This document shows, one piece after another, positions 11,479 to 46,046 of a stretch of DNA of 64,000 nt; positions within the stretch are counted from its first letter, which is position 1, and the number at the start of each line of letters is the position of its first letter. The notes below the pieces were generated by a model. It saw nothing but the letters and a program-made list of their open reading frames with translations. It did not search any database and was not told the DNA's origin. The DNA lies in NCBI RefSeq assembly GCF_024347455.1, contig NZ_AP025483.1, positions 3,472,001-3,536,000 on the forward strand, given 5' to 3'. The DNA comes from Vibrio echinoideorum. GTDB taxonomy: Bacteria; Pseudomonadota; Gammaproteobacteria; Enterobacterales; Vibrionaceae. The translations under genes and the position numbers were made by a program.

Positions 11479-12273
11479 TTAGAACTTGTAACCTCGGTGC
11501 AGCGCAACAATGCCGCCCGTTAGGTTGAAGTATTTTGTATTTTCAAAACCCGCTTCTTGCATCATGCCTTCCAAAGTTTCTTGGTTCGGGTGCATGCGGA
11601 TAGATTCTGCAAGGTAACGGTAGCTGTCTGCATCGTTAGCAATCAGCTCACCCATTTTTGGTAACAGGTGGAAAGAGTATGCGTCGTAAACCTTTGATAG
11701 TGGTTCAAGTACTGGCTTAGAAAACTCAAGAACCAACAGACGACCACCCGGCTTAAGTACGCGATACATTGAACGCAGTGCTTGGTCTTTATCGGTTACG
11801 TTACGCAGACAAAAGCTGATCGTAATGCAATCGAAGTAGTTGTCAGGGAAAGGCAACTCTTCAGCATTCGCTTGTACGTAATGTACATTGCCAACAATAC
11901 CGCTATCACGCAGCTTATCGCGGCCAACATTCAGCATTGAGTTGTTAATATCTGCAAGAACCACGTGGCCTTTTTCGCCAACGATACGCGAGAATTTCGC
12001 AGTAAGGTCGCCAGTACCACCACCAAGGTCTAGGATACGTTGACCAGGGCGAACGCCACTGCAATCAATCGTGAATCGCTTCCACAAGCGGTGAACACCA
12101 CCCGACATTAGATCATTCATGATGTCGTATTTAGCGGCTACAGAGTGAAATACCTCTGCTACTTTCGCGACTTTTTCGTCTTTTGCGACTGTTTCGAAAC
12201 CAAAGTGTGTGGTTTCTGACTCTACTGCTGAATTTGTCTGCACGCTTGTGTCCATAATGCTGTTATCTACCAT
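11479..12273 (-). CDS. ubiE: UbiE, ubiquinone/menaquinone C-methyltransferase
   Basis: SAM-dependent methyltransferase acting on demethylmenaquinone and on the C2 position of the benzoquinol intermediate. It has the SAM motif [12 protein letters not shown], then [11 protein letters not shown], the UbiE signature [19 protein letters not shown], and [33 protein letters not shown] start at the ATG at 12273 (264 residues, MVDNSI), which has GAGA 7 bases upstream and parallels the E. coli MVDK start. An upstream in-frame start at 12297 has no good ribosome site. First gene of ubiEJB-tat, 50 bases after rmuC. Confidence 0.96.
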
Positions 12274-32522: not shown

Positions 32523-33881
32523 ATGGCGACTCATTTTGATTACATCTGTATCGGTGGCGGTTCAGGCGGCATCGCATCAGCTAACCGCGCAGCAATGCAC
32601 GGTGCAAAAGTTGCACTTATCGAAGCTCAAGACCTTGGTGGTACTTGTGTAAACGTTGGTTGTGTTCCTAAAAAAGTGATGTGGCACGGCGCTCAGGTTG
32701 CTGAAGCGATCAACCTATATTCAGAAGACTACGGCTTCGACGTTGAAGTAAAAGGCTTCAACTGGGGCAAGCTGGTTGAAAACCGCCAAGCGTACATTGG
32801 ACGTATCCACGAATCTTACGATCGCGTTTTGGGTAACAACAAAATAAACGTAATCAAAGGCTTTGCGAAGTTTGTCGATGAGAAGACTGTTGAAGTTAAC
32901 GGTGAGCACTACACCGCTGATCACATTCTGATCGCAGTGGGTGGTCGTCCAACTATTCCAAACATCCCTGGCGCAGAGCACGGTATCGACTCAAACGGCT
33001 TCTTCGACCTGATGGAGCAACCAAAGCGTGTTGCGGTTATCGGCGCAGGCTACATCGCGGTAGAAATCGCAGGCGTATTAAGTGCACTTGGCACAGAAAC
33101 ACACCTGTTCTGTCGTAAAGAGTCACCACTTCGTAGCTTTGACCCAATGATCATCGAAACATTGGTTGAAGTAATGGAAGCGGAAGGCCCAACACTTCAC
33201 ACGCATTCTGTACCTAAAGAAGTTGTGAAAGAAGCGGACGGTACTCTGACTCTGCACCTAGAGAACGGCAACACTCAAAACGTTGACCACCTAATTTGGG
33301 CTATCGGTCGCCACCCAGCGACTGACGCTATCAACCTAACATCAACGGGTGTTGCAACCAACGACCGCGGCTACATCAAGGTAGATGAGTTCCAAACGAC
33401 AAATGTTCCTGGCATCTACTGTGTTGGCGACATCATGGAAGGCGGCATCGAGCTAACACCTGTTGCTGTTAAAGCAGGTCGTCAACTTTCTGAACGCCTA
33501 TTCAACGGTCAAACGAACGCTAAGATGGACTACGAGCTAGTGCCTACTGTTGTATTCAGCCACCCACCTATCGGCACGATCGGTCTAACGACTCAAGAAG
33601 CTGAAGAGAAGTACGGCAAAGACAACATCAAGGTTTACACGTCTGGCTTCACTGCAATGTACACAGCAGTAACCAAGCACCGTCAACCTTGTAAGATGAA
33701 GCTTGTATGTGCTGGTGAAGAAGAGACAGTAGTCGGCCTGCACGGCATCGGCTTCACTGTTGATGAGATGCTTCAAGGCTTCGGCGTTGCAATGAAGATG
33801 GGCGCAACCAAAGCAGACTTCGACTCTGTTGTGGCTATCCACCCAACAGGCAGCGAAGAATTTGTTACCATGACAGGTTAG
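32523..33881 (+). CDS. gor: Glutathione-disulfide reductase
   Basis: NADPH-dependent flavoenzyme that keeps glutathione reduced in the cytoplasm. The 452-residue protein has the FAD fold [19 protein letters not shown] and the redox disulfide [16 protein letters not shown]. The NADPH fold is [17 protein letters not shown], followed by the FAD-proximal GIYCVGDIM and the C-terminal [11 protein letters not shown] with the catalytic His-Glu pair. I start at ATG 32523 (GGAGAAAG upstream); the ATG at 32511 is 12 bases earlier and overlaps the ribosome site. No terminator follows within the remaining native sequence because the mobile element begins 25 bases after the stop codon. Confidence 0.97.
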
Positions 33882-33906
33882 TGTAGGAAAAGCATCTTAC
33901 ACACAT

Positions 33907-33921
33907 AAATAAATCTGGAAA
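33907..33921. repeat. Left terminal inverted repeat of the element
   Basis: AAATAAATCTGGAAA, the exact reverse complement of 45967-45981. It lies 25 bases after the gor stop codon. Confidence 0.85.
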
Positions 33922-33932
33922 ATAATCATTCG

Positions 33933-33957
33933 CTGACTATGCTGTATGTATAGTCAG
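33933..33957. promoter_or_regulatory. Palindrome upstream of intA (operator or recombinase site)
   Basis: Perfect 8-bp arms CTGACTAT/ATAGTCAG with a 9-base spacer, between the left repeat and the intA start (20 bases before the ATG). Position fits an operator, a core-type recombinase binding site, or both. Confidence 0.55.
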
Positions 33958-33976
33958 TGATTTTCTAGGTGAATTT

Positions 33977-35296
33977 ATGTATCTCATACAATCAAGCAAT
34001 GTCTATACACAGACAGAATTATCAGTCAGTAATGACATCTGTGAATGCTCTCCCCTAAAGGAAAATATTGGCTCACTGCCGACACTGTTCAACCAAGATG
34101 GTTCGTTCAACCACGAAGCGAACAGTTACCTCTTCTATCAGAAAGCCATCAAAAAAGCTAAAGACCTTTCACCCTGTGCTCAAGCATTACAGGCTTACTA
34201 CCAGTTCCTTGAAGATAAAGGGTTGGCATGGGACTCATTCCCTCCCATCAAAAGACTCAAGCCAACTTATCTTTTCCGCTCTCACCTGTTAAAGCAAATC
34301 ACAAGCGGTGAGTTAGCTCACAGTACAGCAAGCGTGCGAATGAATCAGATTGTTAACTACTACAAGTGGTTAATGCATGATGGTTACTTAAAAATCAAGA
34401 ACGAGAAAGAAGCGCCATTTAAAATCGAGTTTGTCTCTGTTCAAAGCAGCGGGATGCTAGCGCACATATCGCCAACGTTTACCGTTGAAACGAGCGACTT
34501 GCGAATAAAAGTACCAAAGGATGCCAGCAGTAAGAGCATTCGGCCTTTGTCTCCACTCGCTCAAGAATCACTGAGAATTCTGACACAGCACCTTCCTAAC
34601 GCATCCGAAGAATTGCGCTTGCAGGTGTTAATTTCTATTGATACGGGAATGCGAATAAAAGAGGTGGCAACGCTCTCCCTGAATGCTCTTGATACAGCGA
34701 CACCTCTGGCTGAAAGTGAACATCGTTACGAGATAGTTTTATCGCCTCAATCGACAGGCGTTCAGACTAAATATTTAAAGCAAAGACGCGTTGAAATCTC
34801 ATCAGAGCTATTAGCCACACTGAACGAATACCGAACCTCCGAGCGTAGAATCAAACGGGTAAACAAACTCAATACCAAATTAGTATTATTGCCCGAAAAT
34901 GCGCCCTCCCTTAAACAAGATACCATCGAGATGTTTAAGTTGTGTGAGCGTCATGAACCTCTTTTCGTGAGTGAGCAAGGCAATCCTGTGACCTCTAAAT
35001 CGATTGGATCACGATGGACGGAATTTAGAGCTTCTATCAAGAAAGTTTGCCCTTCCTTTACTCATCGCTTCCACGATCTGCGTGCAACCTACGGTACATA
35101 CCGATTAAATGATTTGCTTGAGGCTGATCTATCTCCAGTGGAATGCATGGAGCTGTTGATGGGCTGGATGGGGCATAGAAACGAATCTACGACTTGGAAA
35201 TATCTGCGTTATTTACAACGCAAAGAAGCGTTCAAAGTGAAGTTTGGCATTCTAGATAGCATCATGCACGAAGCGCTAGGAGGTGAGAGTGAGTGA
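33977..35296 (+). CDS. intA: Tyrosine recombinase IntA-like (first integrase)
   Basis: A 439-residue tyrosine recombinase with a complete catalytic set: Arg226 in DTGMRIKEVATL, His366 and Arg369 in HDLRATYGTY, His400 in WMGHRNE, and nucleophile Tyr409 nine residues later (WKYLRY). The N-terminal third (about 55-155) is a SAM-like core-binding domain. It is first in the operon, with AGGTGA before the ATG, 55 bases inside the left repeat. Its stop overlaps the next start by 8 bases. By analogy with SEs it should cut and exchange strands at the element ends; that role is inferred. Confidence 0.88.
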   Translation: MYLIQSSNVYTQTELSVSNDICECSPLKENIGSLPTLFNQDGSFNHEANSYLFYQKAIKKAKDLSPCAQALQAYYQFLEDKGLAWDSFPPIKRLKPTYLFRSHLLKQITSGELAHSTASVRMNQIVNYYKWLMHDGYLKIKNEKEAPFKIEFVSVQSSGMLAHISPTFTVETSDLRIKVPKDASSKSIRPLSPLAQESLRILTQHLPNASEELRLQVLISIDTGMRIKEVATLSLNALDTATPLAESEHRYEIVLSPQSTGVQTKYLKQRRVEISSELLATLNEYRTSERRIKRVNKLNTKLVLLPENAPSLKQDTIEMFKLCERHEPLFVSEQGNPVTSKSIGSRWTEFRASIKKVCPSFTHRFHDLRATYGTYRLNDLLEADLSPVECMELLMGWMGHRNESTTWKYLRYLQRKEAFKVKFGILDSIMHEALGGESE

Positions 35297-37040
35297 TAAT
35301 GTTGCCTATCTCCACGGCTGGAACGCGAATCTTTGTTTTCAATTGGACACTGATAATAACCACCTTGCCGACTTTAATCGCTTTCTGGTTAAACACTTTC
35401 CTACTACCAAACATCTTCAGCAAGGAGGTCGATTTGAAGATGCCAAACGTGATGGTTTTGTGCATCAAATCAAAGCCCGCTTTACTGAAAAAATGGAAGA
35501 AGGATATAGTCATAGCACTCTGTATACGCATTACTCCAAACTTTCTCAATACCTGCGTTGGTGTGACAAAAATAATGCGATCGCCTTTACGCAAGAGTCA
35601 CTGGAAGGCTTTATGTCTCACCTGCATACAAGGGTTATGCTAGGGACACTGAAAAACTCCACCTATCAACAGAAACATGCTTCCATGATGGTGTTGTTTC
35701 GGGATTATTTAGATTTACCCTCAAGCTATTTCAACGCGGTAACGGTAATGGATGACAGTGATACAGAGTCGTTTGAAGCCTATACCCGTAGTGATTTAAA
35801 TCAGTTACTTCCTTTCCTGCGCAGCCTGTTCAAGCAAACCTACCGTCAATTTATTGAGTCGCCTAAGACACATACTAACGTGTATAAGAGCGTGGCTAGC
35901 ATGACATTTCAATGGAAAGGACAAACCTATAATCTACATGGTGGTATAACAAAAATGATGTGTGCTGGCGCATACTTGTTGTCTTATTACACCTACGCAA
36001 ATACCAGTGATTTATTTCAGCTAGCACAACCACACAATGCCTTTACTTCGACTGACGAAACTTGGTACACCATGCCTGTGTTTAAACGTAGAGCCTTCAA
36101 GACCATTCAGGTTGAGATAGGCGAGCATGAACTGGATATACCGAAATACGCCATGCGTTTTTTCGACCAATTACTCAATGCGTCACGTTTAATTTCAAAC
36201 GATGAAAACGCAACGCTGCTTCAAACCGTAGTGGCACAGCAAGCGACACCAATGAAAAACGCCACTCTTCAAGATTTCCTTAGAAAATGGGTTGAAAGGC
36301 ACTTTATCTTCACCGACCAAACTGGACGCAGACTGCGCCCGACGATTAGTCGCTTTCGCGAAACGGGAGCACAGATTACCACTTATCACCAAGGCGAAAT
36401 GATGAATGACATCATGCTAGGGAATACGCCTAACACGAGAAAGAGAAGCTATAGCGAAGGAAACCGAATAACCAACAATGCCATGATGCAAGATACGATG
36501 TCGATACGAGAGGAGCAGATTAAAAGTGGCGTTAACCCGAAAAAGGCGCAGACCAATTTAGGTATTGATGTTTTGGTCATAGAAGAAGAAAACAAAATCA
36601 ATCTGCCTGATTTAAGTCGCACGCCCAACGGTGCGAGTTGCGCGACTCCATTTGGCGACAAGTCAGAAAAATACACAAGGAAAGCATTCAAACAAGGGCT
36701 GCTAAGTGAAGGGGAAAAATTGGCTTGTGCTGATTTGCTCGGTTGTTTCGGCTGTCCGAGTCAAGTCATCGTTCAATCGCTCTCAGATATCTGGTGCCTA
36801 CTTAGTTTTAAGGCGTGCATTGAGGAATCACTCTACCAACACCTCGACGCCAGCCACTACCGCCAGAACTTTGAAAATATCATAGTGTTCATAGAAGAAA
36901 AAATCTTACCCCATATTGCCAGAAAACTACTCAAACAAGCACAAGCCAAGCTTGATGATGAAGGCTATCACCCTAATTGGGACGATACTGATTCCGTTCT
37001 TGGTTTAATCCCTGCGCTATCTCAGGTGTTATCATCATGA
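35289..37040 (+). CDS. tfp: Tyrosine-recombinase-fold protein lacking most catalytic residues (Tfp-like)
   Basis: A 583-residue protein with the layout of a tyrosine recombinase: an N-terminal SAM-like domain (HSTLYTHYSKLSQYLRWCDKNNAI) and a C-terminal catalytic-fold region. The active site is eroded. The first Arg position reads YANTSDLFQL (Asn), the HxxR box reads SRFRETGAQ (His lost, Arg kept), and GH becomes GN, although a Tyr nine residues later is kept (RKRSY). A Cys cluster (CADLLGCFGCP) lies near the C terminus. I start at GTG 35289 because AGGAGG lies 5 bases upstream. It probably has an architectural role between the two active enzymes. Confidence 0.8.
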   Translation: MSDNVAYLHGWNANLCFQLDTDNNHLADFNRFLVKHFPTTKHLQQGGRFEDAKRDGFVHQIKARFTEKMEEGYSHSTLYTHYSKLSQYLRWCDKNNAIAFTQESLEGFMSHLHTRVMLGTLKNSTYQQKHASMMVLFRDYLDLPSSYFNAVTVMDDSDTESFEAYTRSDLNQLLPFLRSLFKQTYRQFIESPKTHTNVYKSVASMTFQWKGQTYNLHGGITKMMCAGAYLLSYYTYANTSDLFQLAQPHNAFTSTDETWYTMPVFKRRAFKTIQVEIGEHELDIPKYAMRFFDQLLNASRLISNDENATLLQTVVAQQATPMKNATLQDFLRKWVERHFIFTDQTGRRLRPTISRFRETGAQITTYHQGEMMNDIMLGNTPNTRKRSYSEGNRITNNAMMQDTMSIREEQIKSGVNPKKAQTNLGIDVLVIEEENKINLPDLSRTPNGASCATPFGDKSEKYTRKAFKQGLLSEGEKLACADLLGCFGCPSQVIVQSLSDIWCLLSFKACIEESLYQHLDASHYRQNFENIIVFIEEKILPHIARKLLKQAQAKLDDEGYHPNWDDTDSVLGLIPALSQVLSS

Positions 37041-39082
37041 AAACCAGCCACTTATACACTGAGGACTTCCCCGAAGCGCACAAGGTGCAAGTCGTGGACA
37101 TTATATCGCTATATCACGAAGGGCGATTTGAAGAGTTGGATGCTGTTGTTATTTGCAAAGATAAAGACGGTAACGTGACGGCTACGTTTGGGCAAAGTAA
37201 TTGGGATTGCTTGCCTTTTTCACGCAAGAAAGATAGTAACAACCTCAACTTCTCAAACTTTAACGCCGCTACTGAATTGCAACGTGAATTAAAGGTATTC
37301 GCCTTTGGTTGGCTTTTTAACGCCAACCCAAAAGGGAAAAAAGCACGGCGCTTTTCAGGCGTTAGTTCTCAACTAGAAGGAATAAAAATAATTTACGCAT
37401 TCTTAATGCGGGAGAGCCAAGCATCTTTAGTTGCGCTTTCCTCTGCGCCATTTAGGATAAAGCTTGATAACTACCTTCAAGAACAAGGTTATTCCCAATC
37501 AACACTTGAGAAAACATTTGTTGCCATCAATGGAGTAATCGGTGATTCGGGTTGGCACTACATACCGTTGGGCATCGTACCTATCAAGTCAAAAAAAGAA
37601 GCAAAAAGACTGAGTGATAAAGATAGTCAGCAAACCTTAGTCATTCCTGAGCGGCTATGTCATGCAATCTATGGCAAGGCAATCGCGCTCATTGAAGAGG
37701 CACTACCTCACGCTAAACTACTAGCCGACACCGAAAATGCGCTGCAAGACAACTATATTGAAGGCCTGAGAATTTTGAATAGAAAGGTTCAACAAGGTCA
37801 CATTTATACTTTTATGAACAGTGACGGGAGCATTGATAACCAAAAATATCCAACAGCCATTAATAAAAACCAGCCTCACGACCCTCGCTCTCTTATTCAA
37901 CCTCTGGCAGAGAAACTTCCTGACATTCCACTTAATAATGGCAATGAATTCAGGCGTTACCTAGGGCAACTCATTAATGCAAGTTATATTGTGTGCGGTG
38001 GGTTCAGTGGAATGCGAGACTCAGAATTAGACAAACTAACTCCAAACAGTTATTACAAAGACACCTTGAGCGGTCGAATCCATCACATGCTGCAATCTCA
38101 AACCTTTAAACTAGGGGAAAAACGCGAAACGTGGGTGACAGCATCCTCGGCCAAAACAGCCATCGACTTGATGGCTGTGCTCACGAAGCGCTGGCGAAGC
38201 GAAGCGACTTATCCCGATGATAGGTTCGCAGATTCATTATGGGTGAACCAAGGCGCTCGTTCAAAACCGCCGAAATTAATCACGGATTGGAATGATCGAC
38301 TAAAACGTTTTTGTACACAGTTCAATTTCATTATCACTGAAGCAGATTACCAAGAGTGCTTAACCTCTAATCCTCACTCATTAGGCAAAATAGAAGAGTC
38401 GGTTGTTATCTGTGAGCCTTGGCCTATGTCCACGCACCAATTTAGACGCACCTTAGCTTTTTACTGCGTAAATAATCGCCTAGGGACACTAATAGCGCTT
38501 AAGCAGCAATTTAAACACCTCTACCTATCGATGACCGAGTGGTATACCAACGGAGGAAAACTGGCGAGCCTACGAGACTTAAAAGTAGATACAAAAATAC
38601 AGCAAGCGCTTGAAGAGATTAATGCAGAAACCACCGCCAATAAAATCTTCAAACAGTGGCACTCAGACGAGCTTCTATCAGGCGCTCATGGTAAAGCGAT
38701 TATGAAAATGCGTGGTGATGTACCGCTAATCTATAGTTCTTGGGATGTAATATACAAGGCCGTTAAGGATGGTAAGCTCACGCTCCACGGTTCACTGCAC
38801 AGTTACTGCAAAAGCGGTTACGATTGCGATATGGATGGTGTCATCTCCCCTCAATTTTGCGTAGATTGCAGCTCTGGCAGCAGCATTATCGACGAACAAC
38901 AGGCTAAATGGTGGCAGAAAAAGCATCACAGCTTAACGGCTTACATAGCTTTCGACGGAGACATATCGGTCACAGACAAAAGCCACTATATTACTCAAAT
39001 TAGGGCTGCGGAAAACGTGATGCGAGATTTTGGTATGGAGTATACAGCTTTTGAAGCAGAGTTAGCGGTGAAGGAGATTTAA
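37037..39082 (+). CDS. intB: Large tyrosine recombinase IntB-like (second integrase)
   Basis: A 681-residue protein overlapping the previous gene by 4 bases (ATGA). The catalytic set is complete though the surrounding sequence is divergent: Arg327 in FSGMRDSELDKL, His467 and Arg470 in THQFRRTLAFY, His494 in QFKHLYLSM, and Tyr503 exactly nine residues later (EWYTNG). A Cys-rich C-terminal segment (CKSGYDCDMDG...FCVDCSSGSS, about 590-620) looks like a zinc-binding knuckle. Large size with late catalytic motifs parallels Tn554 TnpB. Expected to act with IntA at the element ends. Confidence 0.85.
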   Translation: MKTSHLYTEDFPEAHKVQVVDIISLYHEGRFEELDAVVICKDKDGNVTATFGQSNWDCLPFSRKKDSNNLNFSNFNAATELQRELKVFAFGWLFNANPKGKKARRFSGVSSQLEGIKIIYAFLMRESQASLVALSSAPFRIKLDNYLQEQGYSQSTLEKTFVAINGVIGDSGWHYIPLGIVPIKSKKEAKRLSDKDSQQTLVIPERLCHAIYGKAIALIEEALPHAKLLADTENALQDNYIEGLRILNRKVQQGHIYTFMNSDGSIDNQKYPTAINKNQPHDPRSLIQPLAEKLPDIPLNNGNEFRRYLGQLINASYIVCGGFSGMRDSELDKLTPNSYYKDTLSGRIHHMLQSQTFKLGEKRETWVTASSAKTAIDLMAVLTKRWRSEATYPDDRFADSLWVNQGARSKPPKLITDWNDRLKRFCTQFNFIITEADYQECLTSNPHSLGKIEESVVICEPWPMSTHQFRRTLAFYCVNNRLGTLIALKQQFKHLYLSMTEWYTNGGKLASLRDLKVDTKIQQALEEINAETTANKIFKQWHSDELLSGAHGKAIMKMRGDVPLIYSSWDVIYKAVKDGKLTLHGSLHSYCKSGYDCDMDGVISPQFCVDCSSGSSIIDEQQAKWWQKKHHSLTAYIAFDGDISVTDKSHYITQIRAAENVMRDFGMEYTAFEAELAVKEI

Positions 39083-39083
39083 G

Positions 39084-39542
39084 ATGGGAAAAAGTGAAAA
39101 TACACTAATTGCACTAGAAGCTGCTTTAGACCGAATATCCCAAAGTAAACCCAAACGTATCCCACCTCATCGCAAGCTCAGTGTGAGAGCTGCTGAAGAA
39201 GAGGCTAATTTGGGTAACGGTAGTGGCTATTACTATCCTGAGTTTGTTGAAAAAGTGAAACAAACTAAAGCCGAGATTGCAGCAAGCAAAGGTGAAATAG
39301 TTCAGCCAGAAGTCCAAAGAGTTCACACAAAGCTGAATGAGCAGAAGCGTCTCAAGGAGAATTTTAAGACTAAGTATTTGGCTGAGAAAGAGAGATTGAA
39401 GCTATTTGCAGCCTCTCAACACCACCTGAACGATAAGTTAGTTCAGGCATTAGCTCGTATTGATAGTCTTGAGTATGAGAACGCAGAGCTACGAGAGGAA
39501 CTTGCCAAGCTAAAAAGAAGCAAAATCGTACCAATCAAATAA
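39084..39542 (+). CDS. srap: Small coiled-coil recombination accessory protein (SRAP/TnpC-like)
   Basis: A 152-residue basic protein. The N-terminal half has a conserved-looking patch (RIPPHRKLSVRAAEEEANLGNGSGYYYPEF). The C-terminal half is a long charged coiled coil (KLNEQKRLKENFKTKYLAEKERLKLF...IDSLEYENAELREELAKLKRS). It starts 1 base after intB ends, with GGAG inside the intB end, so it is translationally coupled. Position and shape match the fourth gene of SE elements and TnpC of Tn554. It may tether recombinases to DNA or set orientation; no enzymatic motif is visible. Confidence 0.75.
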   Translation: MGKSENTLIALEAALDRISQSKPKRIPPHRKLSVRAAEEEANLGNGSGYYYPEFVEKVKQTKAEIAASKGEIVQPEVQRVHTKLNEQKRLKENFKTKYLAEKERLKLFAASQHHLNDKLVQALARIDSLEYENAELREELAKLKRSKIVPIK

Positions 39543-39719
39543 TTCCGATACAACCCATTTAGATAGGCTACTCCCCACACATACAACGTCTCCCAAAACT
39601 CATTTTTGGACAGAAATCGCTTGGGTTATTTGCTTATATAAGGGCGCTTGGACTTGCTCAACACTTGGGATAGCTTCTTGTTATCCAGCTAGTTCAGCTC
39701 CCTTTTGAGAACGGAAGAG

Positions 39720-41486
39720 TTAAACAGTTTTATAGTGCTCGATAGCTCGTTGCATTCTATCCAGAAGCGGAATAAATCCATTAAAATTGATACTATCTTG
39801 TTTTTTCTTTACGACTCTAGTAGCAAAATCATTTTTCCCGTAATAGCTACTTTTAGGCTCTTTCTTTTCAGTTGGATCAAAGGTTCTCTTATTTAGTGGC
39901 GTGCTCCATAATTTTTGCTCGAACAGGTTTTCAATCATTGTATCGTTACCGCTATTTAAGGGGGTAATTACTACGTACAAATTATGCATTACATGAATGA
40001 ATTCTGAGTTTTTAATCTTAGACTTCATATTTCCTTTTTTAGGAGGCGTAGGGTGCATAGACATAGTCGATATTTTCTGAAGTTTTGCAATGATTCCACC
40101 GTTATCATTTAAACCATCATCATTATCCAAAATGATTAAAACTGGGTATTCTGGCTTCTCAGACTTATAGAATTCATACCTTTCTTTATAAGCATCTATG
40201 AAGTTGGCTAGGTAGGAAGTTCCTCCTGCTAATTCAAGAATAAACTTAGTTCTTCTCGAATAGTCCATAAATTTAACTAGTGATTTAGGCTCTCCAGATT
40301 TGGCTTTAGCATCAATTAATGAAGGGTATTTACCTTTAAGCTTGTAAATCGCTGATGACAAGTACACATTATCAGTTTTTCCTTCACACAGTATTGTGGT
40401 CTTGCTGTTTGCATAGAACCACTTATAAAAAAGAAACTTACTCAAAGTCTTCTCTCTACTGCTCCAAACTTCACGGCTTCGAATTCCATGATGTCGGTGT
40501 TGGTAATGTGTACTCAGTTTTTCTGGGTAATGCACTCGATTGTGGCGGTCGACTGAATCAATGAAATTCAACCGCCCTTCCAATTCAAGAATAGAGCCTT
40601 CAACATGTTCGTCATTGATTAATCTCGTGTAGCTGCCTGTGTGGAATAACGAGTTGCACATTGCTTTGACTGTGCGTCGGTACTCTTTTTTTATCCCAAC
40701 CTTTTCGTTTACTACCAAGCCCGTTACGTCTTGACGAGAATCTTTATATTGAATTCTAGTTTTCTTTTCATTGATAACAAATCCAGCTCTAGAGATCTCT
40801 TTGTCAAGTCTTTTGCTTGCTTTGTAGACTCCATCAAGTTCTGCCATTATTTCAACTGGGAAACTATTTTTTCTTGTTGAGAAAGTTATATCGTCAGCGT
40901 AGCGAGTGTATCTACATGAATTTTTCTTTGCTAACTTTGCTAACGAGATATCTAGAGAATGTGTAATTAGATTGGTTATAACGGGAGAGCAAGGACTCCC
41001 TTGGGGCAAAGAATTATTATGACAAGCAATTTGCGCAACTGCTGTTGCAACATTGGGATCCAATAAAAAATTATTGTTCTTAATGAAAAAACCTCTAACT
41101 CTCCCAAAATTAAACGAGTCAAAAAAATTCCCCAAATCAATATTAAGGATATTTTTTGACTTTTTATGCATTTCAGCGTTAGTTATTATTGATTTTTCTT
41201 TAACAAAGCCATGCGATAGAGTATTGGAGATGTTTTTTTCTTTGTTGATATCATCTATGCAGCCGAGTAGCAGATCGGATAATGATTTTTGAATTTCTTT
41301 TAGTCTATCGTTGGGAGCTTTAATTAAGCGCTCACCACCAGTTTTTTTGGAGATCGTAAACTCTTGATACTTACTAGCATCGGACTCTACAAATAAGACA
41401 TAACTTAGAATTGATGGTTTGACGTCAAGAAGGATAGATAAATCGTTTCTAGATGAGCATTTCTTCAGTTTTTCTATAGAGTTCAT
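39720..41486 (-). CDS. Retron reverse transcriptase fused to a Toprim domain (Eco2/Ec67 type)
   Basis: A 588-residue fusion. The RT half has catalytic Asp117 (NIDLGNFFDSF), QGSPCSP (162-168), RYADD (195-199), and the retron-specific motifs NAEMH (NAxxH, 103-107) and VTG (254-256). The C-terminal half is a Toprim domain with EGKTD (368-372) and LDNDDG (453-458), giving the Glu and DxD metal ligands of OLD-type nucleases. Length matches the RT of retron Ec67 (586 residues as I recall), where the fused Toprim is the effector. A matching msr-msd RNA lies just upstream at 41527-41650. Retrons are anti-phage abortive-infection systems: the msDNA-RT complex guards the cell and releases effector activity on phage attack. 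Confidence 0.95.
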   Translation of the reverse strand: MNSIEKLKKCSSRNDLSILLDVKPSILSYVLFVESDASKYQEFTISKKTGGERLIKAPNDRLKEIQKSLSDLLLGCIDDINKEKNISNTLSHGFVKEKSIITNAEMHKKSKNILNIDLGNFFDSFNFGRVRGFFIKNNNFLLDPNVATAVAQIACHNNSLPQGSPCSPVITNLITHSLDISLAKLAKKNSCRYTRYADDITFSTRKNSFPVEIMAELDGVYKASKRLDKEISRAGFVINEKKTRIQYKDSRQDVTGLVVNEKVGIKKEYRRTVKAMCNSLFHTGSYTRLINDEHVEGSILELEGRLNFIDSVDRHNRVHYPEKLSTHYQHRHHGIRSREVWSSREKTLSKFLFYKWFYANSKTTILCEGKTDNVYLSSAIYKLKGKYPSLIDAKAKSGEPKSLVKFMDYSRRTKFILELAGGTSYLANFIDAYKERYEFYKSEKPEYPVLIILDNDDGLNDNGGIIAKLQKISTMSMHPTPPKKGNMKSKIKNSEFIHVMHNLYVVITPLNSGNDTMIENLFEQKLWSTPLNKRTFDPTEKKEPKSSYYGKNDFATRVVKKKQDSINFNGFIPLLDRMQRAIEHYKTV

Positions 41487-41526
41487 TTCAGGTTACCAAG
41501 GCAATAAACAACTAGAGGGAGGGGTC

Positions 41527-41650
41527 GCTTACGGGCACTCCTATGCCATGTCGAGGATCATAGAGAAACTGAACATTACATTATAAAGGCAAGTCTATCA
41601 GACGTTGTTTTCACTGATGGCGATACGCCACCCAAAATCTGCCCGTAAGC
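41527..41650 (-). ncRNA. Retron msr-msd non-coding RNA
   Basis: Closed by an 11-bp perfect inverted repeat: a1 at 41650-41640 and a2 at 41537-41527 (GCTTACGGGCA/TGCCCGTAAGC). After a1 the RNA reads AGATTTT, with the probable branching G at 41639 just inside a1. It continues with an msr hairpin GGTGGCG-TAT-CGCCATC (one G-U), then AGTG and a small GTCT-GAT-AGAC hairpin. The msd 3' part has CTATG/CATAG and ends GGAGTGCC into a2. The AGATTT after a1 and GGAGTGCC before a2 are shared with the Ec67 RNA as I remember it. It ends 41 bases before the RT start, the normal layout. Exact msDNA ends need mapping. Confidence 0.88.
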
Positions 41651-41657
41651 TATGGAT

Positions 41658-41690
41658 ATAGTACAATCATTCATAATTAATTAAAGTGAT
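41658..41690 (-). promoter_or_regulatory. Possible retron promoter
   Basis: On the minus strand TACTAT (41663-41658) lies 8 bases before a1 and could be a -10 element, preceded by TG and AT-rich DNA. The -35 (CTTTAA at 17-base spacing) is weak. Confidence 0.3.
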
Positions 41691-41873
41691 TAAAATCAAT
41701 AAATTAAATCGTTATTGATTCCAATGGCATTTTTGCTAAATAATCAGAATGAACTAACTGGTGTATGACAATATTCGCTTCATCGCGTATCCAGTATCGC
41801 TGGAAAAGATCAATATTTACCTATCGAAGCCCTCATACTAAATCTAAGGCAGTAAAAACTACATTCATTGTCT

Positions 41874-42038
41874 TCAGTTATTTGACGTCTTCGAGACCTC
41901 TACTTTCAACTGATCCTCTAAGATACTTTTTATCTGGGATAATTCTGCATATCCAACATCTCCACAGAACCCGCTCATCTCCACTTTCACTAGATGCATG
42001 AGGGTTTTCACTTGCTCTTCTGTCAGTATTAGTTCCAT
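41874..42038 (-). CDS. Small hypothetical protein upstream of the retron
   Basis: A 54-residue ORF starting MELILTEEQVKTLMHLVKVE and ending KVEVSKTSNN. It is acidic and amphipathic, with clean heptad-like helices, and reads as a real protein and not a random frame. GGA lies 6 bases before the ATG at 42038; an ATG two codons upstream is an alternative. It points the same way as the retron, 223 bases upstream of the ncRNA. It could be retron-associated or an independent cargo gene. I do not recognise the family. Confidence 0.5.
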   Translation of the reverse strand: MELILTEEQVKTLMHLVKVEMSGFCGDVGYAELSQIKSILEDQLKVEVSKTSNN

Positions 42039-42471
42039 ATTCATTCCACTGATTACGCACATCTATACATGTTGTATTAGTACAATACTTATAGCATGTT
42101 AACGAAAACCCAGCCAGCACATTGTTTGTAAGTTATTGAATTACAATACTTTAACTTAGGTTAGTGCATTAATTTAAATACACTTTTAATTTTAAACCGA
42201 CTGGTTTCATGCTAGAAATGAGTTCAATTATGATGATATGAATAATTTCGAGAGGATGCATTGATGCTGGATAGCAGTCAATCAATGCTCTTTCGAACAT
42301 TATAGTGGCTGATTTGAAGGTTAAGAATAGACACTCACAAACCTGAAAACATTTCAGGTTGGCGTTAAATATAGAGGTATGATTCAACCATGCACTCTAA
42401 TAAATAAGGCGTATTAGCACTAATATATTCATTAAGATCTTTAAAAATTGTGGGGAATTTCCATATTTTCC
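42039..42471. other. AT-rich non-coding stretch in the element
   Basis: I see no convincing gene. A 72-codon minus-strand frame (42169-42387) has no ribosome site and an implausible composition. The region presumably carries the promoter for the small ORF. Confidence 0.35.
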
Positions 42472-42514
42472 AGAAAAAGGCGGATGTCCAAGATCTTGGA
42501 CATCCGCTTTTTCT
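42472..42514. terminator. Long perfect hairpin between the retron unit and the PHP-ATPase gene
   Basis: The core 42480-42507 is a 28-bp perfect palindrome (GCGGATGTCCAAGA arm). Flanking AGAAAAAG/CTTTTTCT extends pairing with a single bulged G, and GGGAATTT (42453-42460)/AAATTCCC (42515-42522) can pair beyond that. U-tracts occur on both strands, so a bidirectional terminator is likely. It lies about 250 bases past the PHP-ATPase stop. Confidence 0.75.
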
Positions 42515-42762
42515 AAATTCCCGTCTCAAGCTTTCATACTGGTTATCTTTGCTTGGTTAAGATTCTGATAGTTGTTCGGGAGTAACCCCAAACGGTGGGT
42601 CTGCTGACTCGAACCGACCTTGTCATCATAAAAAATCGTTTTTACCGTATGATTGTTATCATCGTTACATGAGCTGAATTTGGCAAAGCCTAAATATAGA
42701 AGCCTTTGCCCAAACAGTGACGTTCACTTCTTCCATATTCTAGACAAGTTAAAGTCTTAGAA

Positions 42763-45573
42763 TCAAAGTAGGTTATATTTCTGCTCCCGTTCTTTGAAGG
42801 CACTGATGCCACCTTCAAGGATATGACAAACATGCTGTCGAATGCCTAGCTCATCAAGTGATTGATAGTCATGGCTGTTATCAGACTTCAAGCTATGCTC
42901 TATGCTACCGCCAAGATATTCAAATTGGTGTGTGCCTGCTGTGCCTGACTGCCCTCGTTGGTCTGCAACAACAATACACTCTGCATCTGCTGCAACCACT
43001 AGGTTTGCGTTGTGTGTCACCATGATAATTTGTCGCTTACTCTTACACTTACGAACGAAGTCTTTAAGTTCTGAATAAATCGTTCTGTTATCCAAGTTAT
43101 CCTCTGGCTGGTCAATCAATATTGGGTGCGTTGAGTTACTAAGCTCAAGCATCAAACTGAGTAAGACCAAGCCACGTTTACCCGGTGACATATGTACAAT
43201 GCTGTCGTTCTTATAGGTAACAAGGAAGTCGATACCGAAGTAATCAGCGTAAAGGAGCTTGTAAGCATCTTTAAGGCTCTGGTTCTTGCGCAAGGTAGGG
43301 GATTGACTGCCCCTGATAGTATTGGCGGTATTCTCTACAAATGCAGCGTGAGTATCAATGTCAAAATGGTAGTCACCATTTTCATCCTGAACATCATCGA
43401 CTACCGTGCGAATTGCCCCTGACTTGTGGTAGCAACTAACAAACGAATCAAACTTGCTAGCATCGACAACAACCTTTGCCTCAATCTTTATATCGTCATC
43501 CATTTGATGCTCACTGACTTTGGTACAGTGAGATTTGTATTGATCTATCAACGAACTGAACTGCTCATTTAGTTCCTTGATACACTCTTCACCTTTCTTG
43601 GTAATTGCCTCAAGCTCTTTTAGTTTGACATTGATTCTTGCAAGCTTCTCTCGCTCAACCTTGAGTTGCTTATTTAGTTGTTCAAGGGCAGCTTTGTCTT
43701 TCACGTTTTCTTCAAGTGGTTTCAGCTCACGCTCTACCCCCTCAAGCTTGTCGTTTAATGCAGTCAATCTATCGGGGATCGAGTCTAGCTTTAGATTCGC
43801 CTTGTCCTTGGTTGAAGTAAAGCCTGATGCTAAGTTTTGTTGCATTGAATCTAGTAAGCTTTTGAGAACCGTTGATTGTGCAATTAGCCCTGAATCTTGT
43901 TGTAGCTGATCTCGAATCGTGTCAATCCATTGTTCTTGTCGATTATCAATACTCTCTATGAATTTTCGTAAACCAGACTGAATATACGTGAGCCTGTCTT
44001 TTGCCCTGATAACGCACTGTCTTTTATGAACTAGGGAGGCGTAATACTTCTCTTGCTCTTCTGTCCATTTAGATTTGTCTCGAATCTCCTTTGCTCTCAC
44101 TTCAAGTGCTGCAATTTCATTTTTAACAGACTTATCGTTACCAATTTCATTGAGTTCACTGAGTAGCTTTTGGTACTCACTAATCAGTAAGAATCGAGTA
44201 TCAATTTTATCATTAATAGATGAGTTGACTGTGCGCACTCTATTCTCAAGGGCATTAACGAAGTCTTTGTATTGCTCATCTTGAAGAAGAGTTTTAGATA
44301 CCAACTCGTTTAAATCTTCTCGTCCATCTTGATCAGCCAATTGGTTGATATAAAGTTGAGGTATATAGGTGATAGCCCTTGCTTTGTCGTCAGCATCAGA
44401 CAACCTAGAGACTTCATTATTCGACCATTCAACCTCGAAATCTAAGTTAGGAATGTCGCTGTAGGTTGATGACTTTGATAACTCTACTCTGGTTGATACT
44501 TCGCTAGGGTTGATCGTCTTCGCAATGTGGTACAGAAGCATAGATTTACCGGAAGACTTACCACCAATGATTGTGTTCAGGTCTTTGTTAAGCGGTATCC
44601 ACTTCTTCGAAAACTTATTCACACCTGAGTTATCAATGTATCGAACCTGCTTAATGGTCTGATATTCAGCCTTAGTTTCGGGAGAAAGTTCACCAATAAA
44701 TGCACGGTCAGGCTCAAAAACAACCTGCTTTAGACCATTGAATGTAGGGTCTGCTTTAATCCAGCAATATCTCTTTTTGTCTGGTTCAAATAACTTGTCG
44801 ATACTATGCGCATCTGAACCATGAACACAAGGAACTAGACGACCAAGCTCGGCTATAATATCTGACCTACTCTTAGTTCCTTGACCAGTAAAGTAGTTGA
44901 TGTCACTTGGTGTGGCTGAAAATACCATGTCAATAAACTGGTAGATGTCTTTCTTTAAGCCAGTAAACCCACCATCTCTAATGCCGGACACACCATCATT
45001 AGAACCATTAGCCGCAACAACTATGGAGTTTTCTTTTAACCACTTCTCTCCGCTGTACCATTTCTTGAGTACATCGTAAGACGGTTTGAAGTTATTAATA
45101 CCTTCCCTTAATGAAGTTCTATTGCAGTGGGCTGTCTTTGGATACAACGCTCGACCATAGCTCATTAACTGATCTTCAGAGCAGGCATAGTTTTGGCCAT
45201 GATGGTCGATGAACAAACGACTGAGAGCGTTCTTGATTTCAGTTATATGATGTGTGGAATCAGGATTAACGAGTATGTGGATGTTTATCCCTTTATGTTT
45301 TTCAGTATTGGGAGTAATCCTAAATTCAATATTGGGGATAACTGTTTCAATATTTTTCATCCGCCCATGTTGTCGATACTCCACGACCTTTTCATAACCA
45401 GATATAGAGCAATAATCTGTGATGCCAATTACAGCAACACCAGAGTCAGATTTCTCGATGGCTGTAATGTAACCATTCCAATCACCTTTAAATTGTGTCT
45501 CTAATACAGAATCAGGAGTGTGTACATGAAGATCCCATCGCCTCCATTCTGAACCTTGTTCGTACAAGCGCAT
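42763..45573 (-). CDS. PHP-domain/SMC-like ATPase, Ppl/TrlF-type defence protein
   Basis: A 936-residue single-gene anti-phage candidate. The N-terminal PHP phosphoesterase domain (1-300) has DLHVHT (HxH, 16-18), GITDYC (about 50-55), NIEFRI and CVHGSDAHS (251-256, DxH), all metal ligands of an active PHP site. An SMC/Rad50-like ATPase follows with Walker A GGKSSGKS (337-344), a long coiled coil (about 430-690), signature MSPGKRGLVLL, Walker B PILIDQPEDNLD (about 817-828) and the His switch VTHNAN. This fusion matches the Ppl defence system and RefSeq TrlF-family proteins as I recall. The trigger and the PHP substrate (nucleic acid or nucleotide) are unknown. It is 1.1 kb upstream of the retron RNA, same strand, but separated by a terminator. 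Confidence 0.88.
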   Translation of the reverse strand: MRLYEQGSEWRRWDLHVHTPDSVLETQFKGDWNGYITAIEKSDSGVAVIGITDYCSISGYEKVVEYRQHGRMKNIETVIPNIEFRITPNTEKHKGINIHILVNPDSTHHITEIKNALSRLFIDHHGQNYACSEDQLMSYGRALYPKTAHCNRTSLREGINNFKPSYDVLKKWYSGEKWLKENSIVVAANGSNDGVSGIRDGGFTGLKKDIYQFIDMVFSATPSDINYFTGQGTKSRSDIIAELGRLVPCVHGSDAHSIDKLFEPDKKRYCWIKADPTFNGLKQVVFEPDRAFIGELSPETKAEYQTIKQVRYIDNSGVNKFSKKWIPLNKDLNTIIGGKSSGKSMLLYHIAKTINPSEVSTRVELSKSSTYSDIPNLDFEVEWSNNEVSRLSDADDKARAITYIPQLYINQLADQDGREDLNELVSKTLLQDEQYKDFVNALENRVRTVNSSINDKIDTRFLLISEYQKLLSELNEIGNDKSVKNEIAALEVRAKEIRDKSKWTEEQEKYYASLVHKRQCVIRAKDRLTYIQSGLRKFIESIDNRQEQWIDTIRDQLQQDSGLIAQSTVLKSLLDSMQQNLASGFTSTKDKANLKLDSIPDRLTALNDKLEGVERELKPLEENVKDKAALEQLNKQLKVEREKLARINVKLKELEAITKKGEECIKELNEQFSSLIDQYKSHCTKVSEHQMDDDIKIEAKVVVDASKFDSFVSCYHKSGAIRTVVDDVQDENGDYHFDIDTHAAFVENTANTIRGSQSPTLRKNQSLKDAYKLLYADYFGIDFLVTYKNDSIVHMSPGKRGLVLLSLMLELSNSTHPILIDQPEDNLDNRTIYSELKDFVRKCKSKRQIIMVTHNANLVVAADAECIVVADQRGQSGTAGTHQFEYLGGSIEHSLKSDNSHDYQSLDELGIRQHVCHILEGGISAFKEREQKYNLL

Positions 45574-45966
45574 TCAATTCCCACTAAACTAATAAATTTT
45601 ATGAAATTTATCACATAACATACAATGTTTAGCTTGATTTCAGTCACATGTTGATTGAGAGACTACTAACCTGACTGGCTATGAAAAAGGCGATGAAGTC
45701 GGTCTTGCGTTTTGCCACGCATTACTTTTTGTATATCAATACTAGTTGACTATCTGTTACGTATTTAGAAGTGGGGCAAAACGTGTTAGTCGAATAAATG
45801 AAGCTGCTCACCTTATGGTTGTAATGATTTAAATACAGGTAAAATTAGACTTGTTGCCTATAGTGAATTGTCTGGAAAGTGATATAGTAAATCTAACATT
45901 TTTAGGAAAAATCGATTCAAATGTCGATTTTTCTGGAAAAGGCTCTAATACCTTCTCCTTTCTACC
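45574..45966. other. Right-end region of the element with subterminal repeats
   Basis: Non-coding. TCTGGAAA, the inner half of the terminal repeat, recurs at 45871-45878 and 45932-45939 in the opposite orientation to the right repeat. A 9-bp palindrome pair AAAAATCGA/TCGATTTTT sits at 45907-45915 and 45924-45932. CGTTTTGCC (45708-45716) has its complement GGCAAAACG at 45775-45783. These look like recombinase or accessory-factor sites. The promoter of the PHP-ATPase gene must also lie here. Confidence 0.5.
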
Positions 45967-45981
45967 TTTCCAGATTTATTT
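45967..45981. repeat. Right terminal inverted repeat of the element
   Basis: TTTCCAGATTTATTT, perfect reverse complement of 33907-33921; the outer edge is at 45981. Confidence 0.85.
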
Positions 45982-46046
45982 CAGAAACCACCTGTGTTGG
46001 TAACCGCCAACGATGCGTTAATCAACGCTATTTGTTGATATCTCTT

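Follow-up and report, generated by a model that had tools for sequence, protein, structure and literature searches.

In the E. coli retron Eco2 (Ec67), the Toprim domain is the toxic effector; PMC12405507 describes an inactive trimer that depends on the msDNA, and an RNase Toprim that becomes toxic once freed. The same paper reports escape mutations in denB, pointing to the nuclease DenB as the trigger. A CAGA context around the branching guanosine is stated for Eco2 in a review (PMC6868368).

We analyzed a 64,000-nucleotide stretch of Vibrio echinoideorum DNA (the window), in which a first-pass annotation, made by a model from the letters alone, had proposed a one-protein retron of the Eco2/Ec67 family. 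This assignment was borne out, as NCBIfam, PADLOC and the solved Eco2 chains agree on it. The parts of the retron are as follows.

39720..41486, minus strand: RT-Toprim protein of 588 aa, a type I-C retron RT carrying its Toprim effector at the C-terminus, in an open frame
41527..41650, minus strand: msr-msd ncRNA locus, a1 to a2, 124 nt, matched at 41525-41652 by a covariance model of relatives only
41640..41650, minus strand: a1 repeat of 11 nt, complementary to a2 at every position, from stem search and covariation
41639, minus strand: predicted branching guanosine in CAGA context, counterpart of Eco2 rG15, from mapping on Eco2
41604..41639, minus strand: predicted msr RNA, branch G to end of template, from mapping on Eco2
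41616..41632, minus strand: msr stem-loop GGTGGCG-TAT-CGCCATC, helix 2, covarying in both alignments
41539..41603, minus strand: predicted reverse-transcribed template (msd), 65 nt, from a rule that reproduces the published Eco2 length of 67 nt
41527..41537, minus strand: a2 repeat, from stem search and covariation

The 588-aa protein scored 733.5 bits against NCBIfam NF038237 (retron_Ec67_fus; cut-off 450), which names it 'retron Ec67 family RNA-directed DNA polymerase/endonuclease', and 745.1 bits against the PADLOC model RT-Toprim_I-C; by both scores it is an RT fused to a C-terminal Toprim domain, as is typical of type I-C. Its nearest solved chains in a PDB search were those of Eco2 (E 3.5e-138). 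The RT motifs that had been read by the first-pass annotation are present in the translation, NAxxH as TNAEMH, VTG as DVTG, and YADD, and the C-terminal part aligns with the Toprim half of Eco2, while a Pfam search of the protein returned RVT_1 only and no Toprim match. The predicted single-chain fold (mean pLDDT 83.4, pTM 0.72) had Eco2 as its best structural match, and after three Eco2 entries all remaining VIA-align rows covered the RT half only.

Alignment to Eco2, a check that had been proposed with the annotation, gave 44% identity (248/569 aligned) with the RT and Toprim residues kept. RT residues F43, R53, Y196, D198 and D199 (Eco2 F46, R56, Y199, D201 and D202) and Toprim residues E368, D372, D454, D456 and E519 (Eco2 E374, D378, D460, D462 and E515) do not vary among the 25 proteins aligned, the window's own counted; they include both YADD aspartates. 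The Toprim metal-binding set of E, D, DxD and E is present, with M517 in place of Eco2 S513. The catalytic K562 named in PMC12405507 aligns to an Asp of the Eco2 chain and was left unmapped; the invariant Lys in the 25 proteins is K551.

The family is already annotated and large, with 5786 proteins at E <= 0.001 among 7993 scored candidates, and several of its proteins in Vibrio bear the Ec67 name. Matches at 1e-100 were found in 8 of the 329 genomes of the host's taxonomic family, its own genome counted, and full-length relatives at 78-92% identity exist elsewhere (P0002-P0005). Searches of mobile DNA with RT-Toprim gave 18 loci in IMG/VR (best 51% identity) and 207 plasmid records, 17 of them with 80% cover (best 50.2%). 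A close Vibrio phage carrier was sought in INPHARED, where 53 records match; a single one of them spans 80% of the protein, with 36% identity.

The 124-nt RNA and its 11-bp a1/a2 repeat had been placed correctly: the repeat is exact (GCTTACGGGCA/TGCCCGTAAGC), with CAGATTTT after a1 and GGAG followed directly by TGCC at a2. The gap between the RNA and the RT ATG downstream had been given as 41 bases and measures 40. Upstream of the RT there is the msr-msd RNA expected of type I-C: an a1/a2 stem, a branch G in CAGA context and the msr hairpin. Its predicted fold is better than that of its shuffles (z -2.51; 4 of 200 equally good), and an Rfam search reported no family for the locus. In the register usual for the family, the short third stem (GUCC/GGAU) is interrupted in the window, where it forms only with a 1-base shift. 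This stem, which follows the msr at 41593-41603, reads GTCC/GGAT in relatives and is displaced by one position in both the window and L004 (GTC..GAC), a clade-specific register change.

Conservation of the repeat was assessed by a rule under which the stem ends in A before GA[T/C] and begins at T after AG, applied to 83 upstream regions of up to 330 bases (the window, 80 relative loci, L084 and L085). A stem of at least 8 bp was found in 77 of the 83 regions, window included, and 69 of these reach at least 12 bp; the controls gave 1 such stem in 1660 dinucleotide shuffles and 2 in 956 stretches taken elsewhere in these loci, and of 772 tiles of the window, 8 bp was reached in 2 and 11 bp in 1. 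Six regions were missed by the rule (L014, L043, L045, L059, L072 and L082). We aligned 31 sequences (A2), leaving out L025 and L028 as near copies of L026 together with loci of lower protein identity, and all 74 distinct sequences found (A3); the ncRNAs of L012, L050 and L077 are identical to others. In both alignments all cells of a1/a2 are paired (100%), and 8 of its 11 pairs in A2 and 10 of 11 in A3 show a double-sided change in at least one place; for the msr hairpin the paired share is 97-98%. Double-sided pair changes numbered 36 compared to 6.0 shuffled in the 31 sequences, and 300 compared to 84.6 in the 74, counts that rest on an alignment with the structure taken from the window; when partners were slid by 1-3 columns, 24-42% were paired. 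Given the frequency of the stem at these RTs, its rarity in shuffles and the strong covariation, the objection raised in advance, that a1/a2 might not be conserved in relatives having the same RT, fails.

A covariance search, likewise proposed beforehand, was carried out with a model of 30 relatives from which the window was left out (A4). The model matched the window at 41525-41652 with 105 bits (E 1.1e-24, rough calibration), the next window match being 8.8 bits, and in the whole genome the retron RNA was the only match reported, with 150 of 1293 first-look candidates scored. On 33 further loci, it found the RNA at E < 1e-8 in 26, including 4 of the 6 missed by the stem rule. The remaining seven comprised L002, L125, L126 and L129, which have no type I-C RT and served as negative controls, L045 and L143, which lack a full upstream region, and L072, which gave a weak match only (E 0.69); two weak opposite-strand matches (E 0.025 and 0.18) overlie true ones. 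The model also detected the RNA of the Eco2 locus L149 (E. coli NCTC8623; protein matching the PDB Eco2 chain at every one of the 204 residues compared) at 61.1 bits, and so recognizes type I-C ncRNAs as far as Eco2 itself.

The Eco2 RNA served to calibrate the boundaries. In the numbering of the paper it has G at base 15, U at 51 and G at 52, with a template at 52-118, which is 67 nt and the published length. The same landmarks in the window put the predicted branch G at 41639 and a 65-nt template at 41539-41603. The DNA of the msDNA is accordingly predicted at ~65 nt, starting TCCTATGCC. The family with solved structures thereby gains a well-bounded Vibrio member, whose exact msr/msd boundaries make it clonable.

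The sequence shows the protein family, the covarying ncRNA, the active-site residues and the island with its empty site (below). The locus is very probably a type I-C (Ec67/Eco2-family) retron that works in the manner of Eco2. In such a mechanism, the ncRNA would fold on the a1/a2 stem and the msr hairpin; the RT would prime from the 2'-OH of G41639 and copy 41539-41603 into the DNA of the msDNA, which would keep RT-Toprim assembled in an inactive state. Once the msDNA is damaged or altered by a phage product, the Toprim domain would be freed and would cut RNA, so that protein synthesis stops and the infection is aborted. For the window retron, we infer msDNA synthesis, oligomer, trigger, RNase action and phage defence from Eco2.

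The first-pass annotation had described the msd stem as completely different from that of Ec67 and had suggested that the trigger may differ. The first part stands with respect to sequence, since the msd core is 0.58 identical to that of Eco2, compared to 0.55 ± 0.04 for shuffles, which is chance level; there is hardly a stem, however, the predicted msd DNA of the window (-4.2 kcal/mol, z -0.65) folding no better than its shuffles. The same is true of Eco2 (-6.2 kcal/mol, z 0.05). Between the two, whole-msd identity is 0.60 (random 0.55 ± 0.03) and msr identity 0.65 (random 0.56 ± 0.05). Among 2850 pairs from 76 loci, msd core identity tracks protein identity and is near random below ~60% of the latter: mean msd identity is 0.97 at 90-100% protein identity, 0.89 at 80-90%, 0.72 at 70-80%, 0.62 at 60-65% and 0.56 at 40-50% (random 0.53 ± 0.05), and msr still averages 0.70 at 30-50%. 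Against its 75 partners, the window ranges over 0.42-0.71 for msd and 0.58-0.89 for msr. A wholly unlike msd is therefore expected at 44% protein identity. The msd fold is weaker than that of the window in 11 of 74 family members and clearly better than shuffles (z < -2) in only 7 of the 74. With such divergence and such weak folds common in the family, neither a different stem nor a weak stem marks out this retron.

A hypervariable msd under diversifying selection was considered and rejected on counts of the pairs in which msd identity exceeds coding-sequence identity. Between 80 and 90% protein identity all 5 of 5 pairs do so; the other classes give 5 of 9 (90-100%), 15 of 30 (70-80%), 11 of 28 (65-70%) and 22 of 90 (60-65%).

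It is possible, though we think it unlikely, that the window retron acts like Eco2 and senses another phage product owing to its different msd. The chance-level identity of the msd core would fit, as would the phage methyltransferase that triggers two environmental retrons according to PMC12548924. Against this, msd divergence tracks protein divergence, and the review has the msr and RT of Ec67 copying the msd of Ec73 (PMC6868368), so the msd sequence is loosely constrained. The step from a different msd to a different trigger is thus not supported; an unlike msd is the family norm at such a distance and by itself is no evidence on the trigger, which corrects an easy reading of the sequence.

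Several Eco2 contacts are changed in the window, R332 of the trimer loop to H327, H281 to N278 and R184 to S181, besides the S513 change above, and these differences leave room for another assembly. A complex of the same parts that does not form the Eco2 ring, a 3:3 assembly of protein and msDNA, is nonetheless quite improbable. It would agree with R332A in Eco2, which abolishes defence and partly impairs the trimer (PMC12405507), and with the His at this position, where Arg occurs in 0 of 25 aligned proteins. On the other hand, the residue directly after it is a conserved Tyr in all 25 proteins, the msr hairpin, which bridges protomers in Eco2, is conserved, and the loop alone is insufficient for the trimer, again according to PMC12405507. 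Finally, it is very improbable that the retron only looks intact and has lost expression or msDNA formation, as the weak msd hairpin, the out-of-register third stem and a crude promoter scan (1 site, on the wrong strand and none on the right one, vs 3.8 in shuffles) might suggest, given the open 588-aa frame with its invariant residues, the intact a1/a2 and msr hairpin, the commonness of weak msd folds in the family and the full-length close relatives elsewhere.

The Eco2-like retron lies on a mobile island, whose parts are listed here.

33874..46008, no strand: retron-bearing mobile island, 12.1 kb, with the gor 3' end as its insertion site, defined by empty sites in L125 (G144) and L126 (G303), ends good to a few bases
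33907..33921, plus strand: left terminal inverted repeat AAATAAATCTGGAAA, 15 nt, from repeat search
33977..35296, plus strand: tyrosine recombinase 1, 439 aa (Pfam Phage_integrase, 39.8 bits)
35283..37040, plus strand: recombinase 2, 585 aa (Pfam Phage_int_SAM_4, 32.1 bits)
37037..39082, plus strand: putative recombinase 3, 681 aa, without a family match and named by its company, with the other three genes in 12/12 fetched sibling loci
39084..39542, plus strand: fourth gene of the recombinase module, a small one of 152 aa, in 12/12 fetched sibling loci
42763..45573, minus strand: AAA-like ATPase of the TrlF family, the second gene carried as cargo (595.6 bits against NCBIfam NF045780, cut-off 350)
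45967..45981, minus strand: right terminal inverted repeat, from repeat search

The island flanks are contiguous in two of three relatives fetched, L125 and L126. At the empty site of L125, a left part 90.6% identical up to 33873 and a right part 88.6% identical from 46009 are joined at 11485-11492; the third relative, L127, has ~2.6 kb of other DNA between the flanks. The insertion alters the gor C-terminus from ...VTMR-stop to ...VTMTG-stop. The 3' part of gor also adjoins the four-gene module in 6 of the 12 sibling loci (L128, L129, L151, L152, L154 and L157), and gene 3 has matches in 98 of the 329 genomes of the host's taxonomic family, many of them weak or partial. An RT-Toprim relative was sought in the 12 sibling loci at E 1e-10, and none was found.

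The sibling islands bear different cargo, defence genes among it. PADLOC matches at 1e-10 were obtained for 7 of 10 sibling cargo ORFs (L150, L151, L155, L156 and L157), comprising type I methyltransferases and a restriction enzyme, Ppl and LmuB, with weaker LmuB/mad3-like and ThsA-like matches; these ORFs were picked for large size and so provide no census, and where the right-hand repeat is lacking an ORF may lie outside the island. Sibling L129 has a PDC-S06 gene. As defence modules, the window island carries the retron with TrlF, and sibling islands carry either type I restriction or Ppl together with Lamassu LmuB. A partial second copy of the 152-aa gene was also observed in L129 (13506-13700), directly after gene 3.

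We had presumed at first that the carrier was a Gamma-Mobile-Trio (GMT) island, a kind marked by three gmt genes. NCBIfam includes Gmt models, and at a threshold of E 0.001 the four genes of the island matched none of them. In the open-licence PMC literature (most subscription papers being outside this scope), we found no paper on this retron locus, none on a gor-targeted recombinase-trio island and none joining 'gamma-mobile-trio' and 'retron'. The retron is cargo of this site-specific recombinase island in gor. More speculatively, and with a low probability, the carrier may represent an undescribed Vibrionaceae family of site-specific defence islands (three recombinase genes and the 152-aa gene, at the gor 3' end) that exchange whole defence modules, with a retron clade that, lacking the Eco2 trimer arginine, may assemble and sense phage differently. 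The gor island in any case offers a concrete spot at which to seek swapped defence genes in Vibrionaceae.

Several other features were noted. The TrlF-family gene adjoins the retron on the same strand, and its protein has an N-terminal stretch that we take, by eye, to resemble a PHP domain. Between the retron RNA and this gene lie a small ORF at 41874-42062 (minus strand, 62 aa, MCVISGMNMELILTEEQVK...) and, after the small ORFs, a long, perfect-looking and terminator-like palindrome at 42480-42530 (AAAAAGGCGGATGTCCAAGATCTTGGACATCCGCTTTTT). Elsewhere in the genome, a second retron-type RT of 313 aa follows a 324-aa ORF (L002, G000:C1:460465-464211); its best PADLOC matches, which cover a part of 249 aa, are RT_I-A (349 bits) and RT_II-A (345 bits), and the gene next to it resembles mutY by eye. 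L003 is a third RT-like match.

Altogether, the window retron is an ordinary type I-C retron whose family, that of Eco2 (Ec67), is well studied, and a mobile defence island carries it. Compared to Eco2 of E. coli (PDB 9lm3, 9i2f and 9s1f), it has the same order and the same one-protein RT-Toprim, sharing YADD, NAxxH, VTG and five of six mapped Toprim metal-site residues, and, in the RNA, CAGA at the branch G, the msr hairpin and GGAG-TGCC before a2. Their msd lengths are also alike (65 nt predicted vs 67 nt). The two differ in setting, Eco2 in L149 adjoining a phage portal gene. The locus L004 of Vibrio plantisponsor encodes an RT-Toprim with 63% protein identity to that of the window and has the same ncRNA plan, with an identical 11-nt a1 and a2 core and an msd core 0.61 identical. 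A second Ec67-family variant of E. coli, L084, most of which is present in 512 of 5426 E. coli genomes, has the same protein layout and ncRNA plan at 41.9% protein identity. In contrast to the fused Toprim of the window, Retron-Eco1 (Ec86), of type II, has a separate NDT-like effector, as described in PMC12405507.
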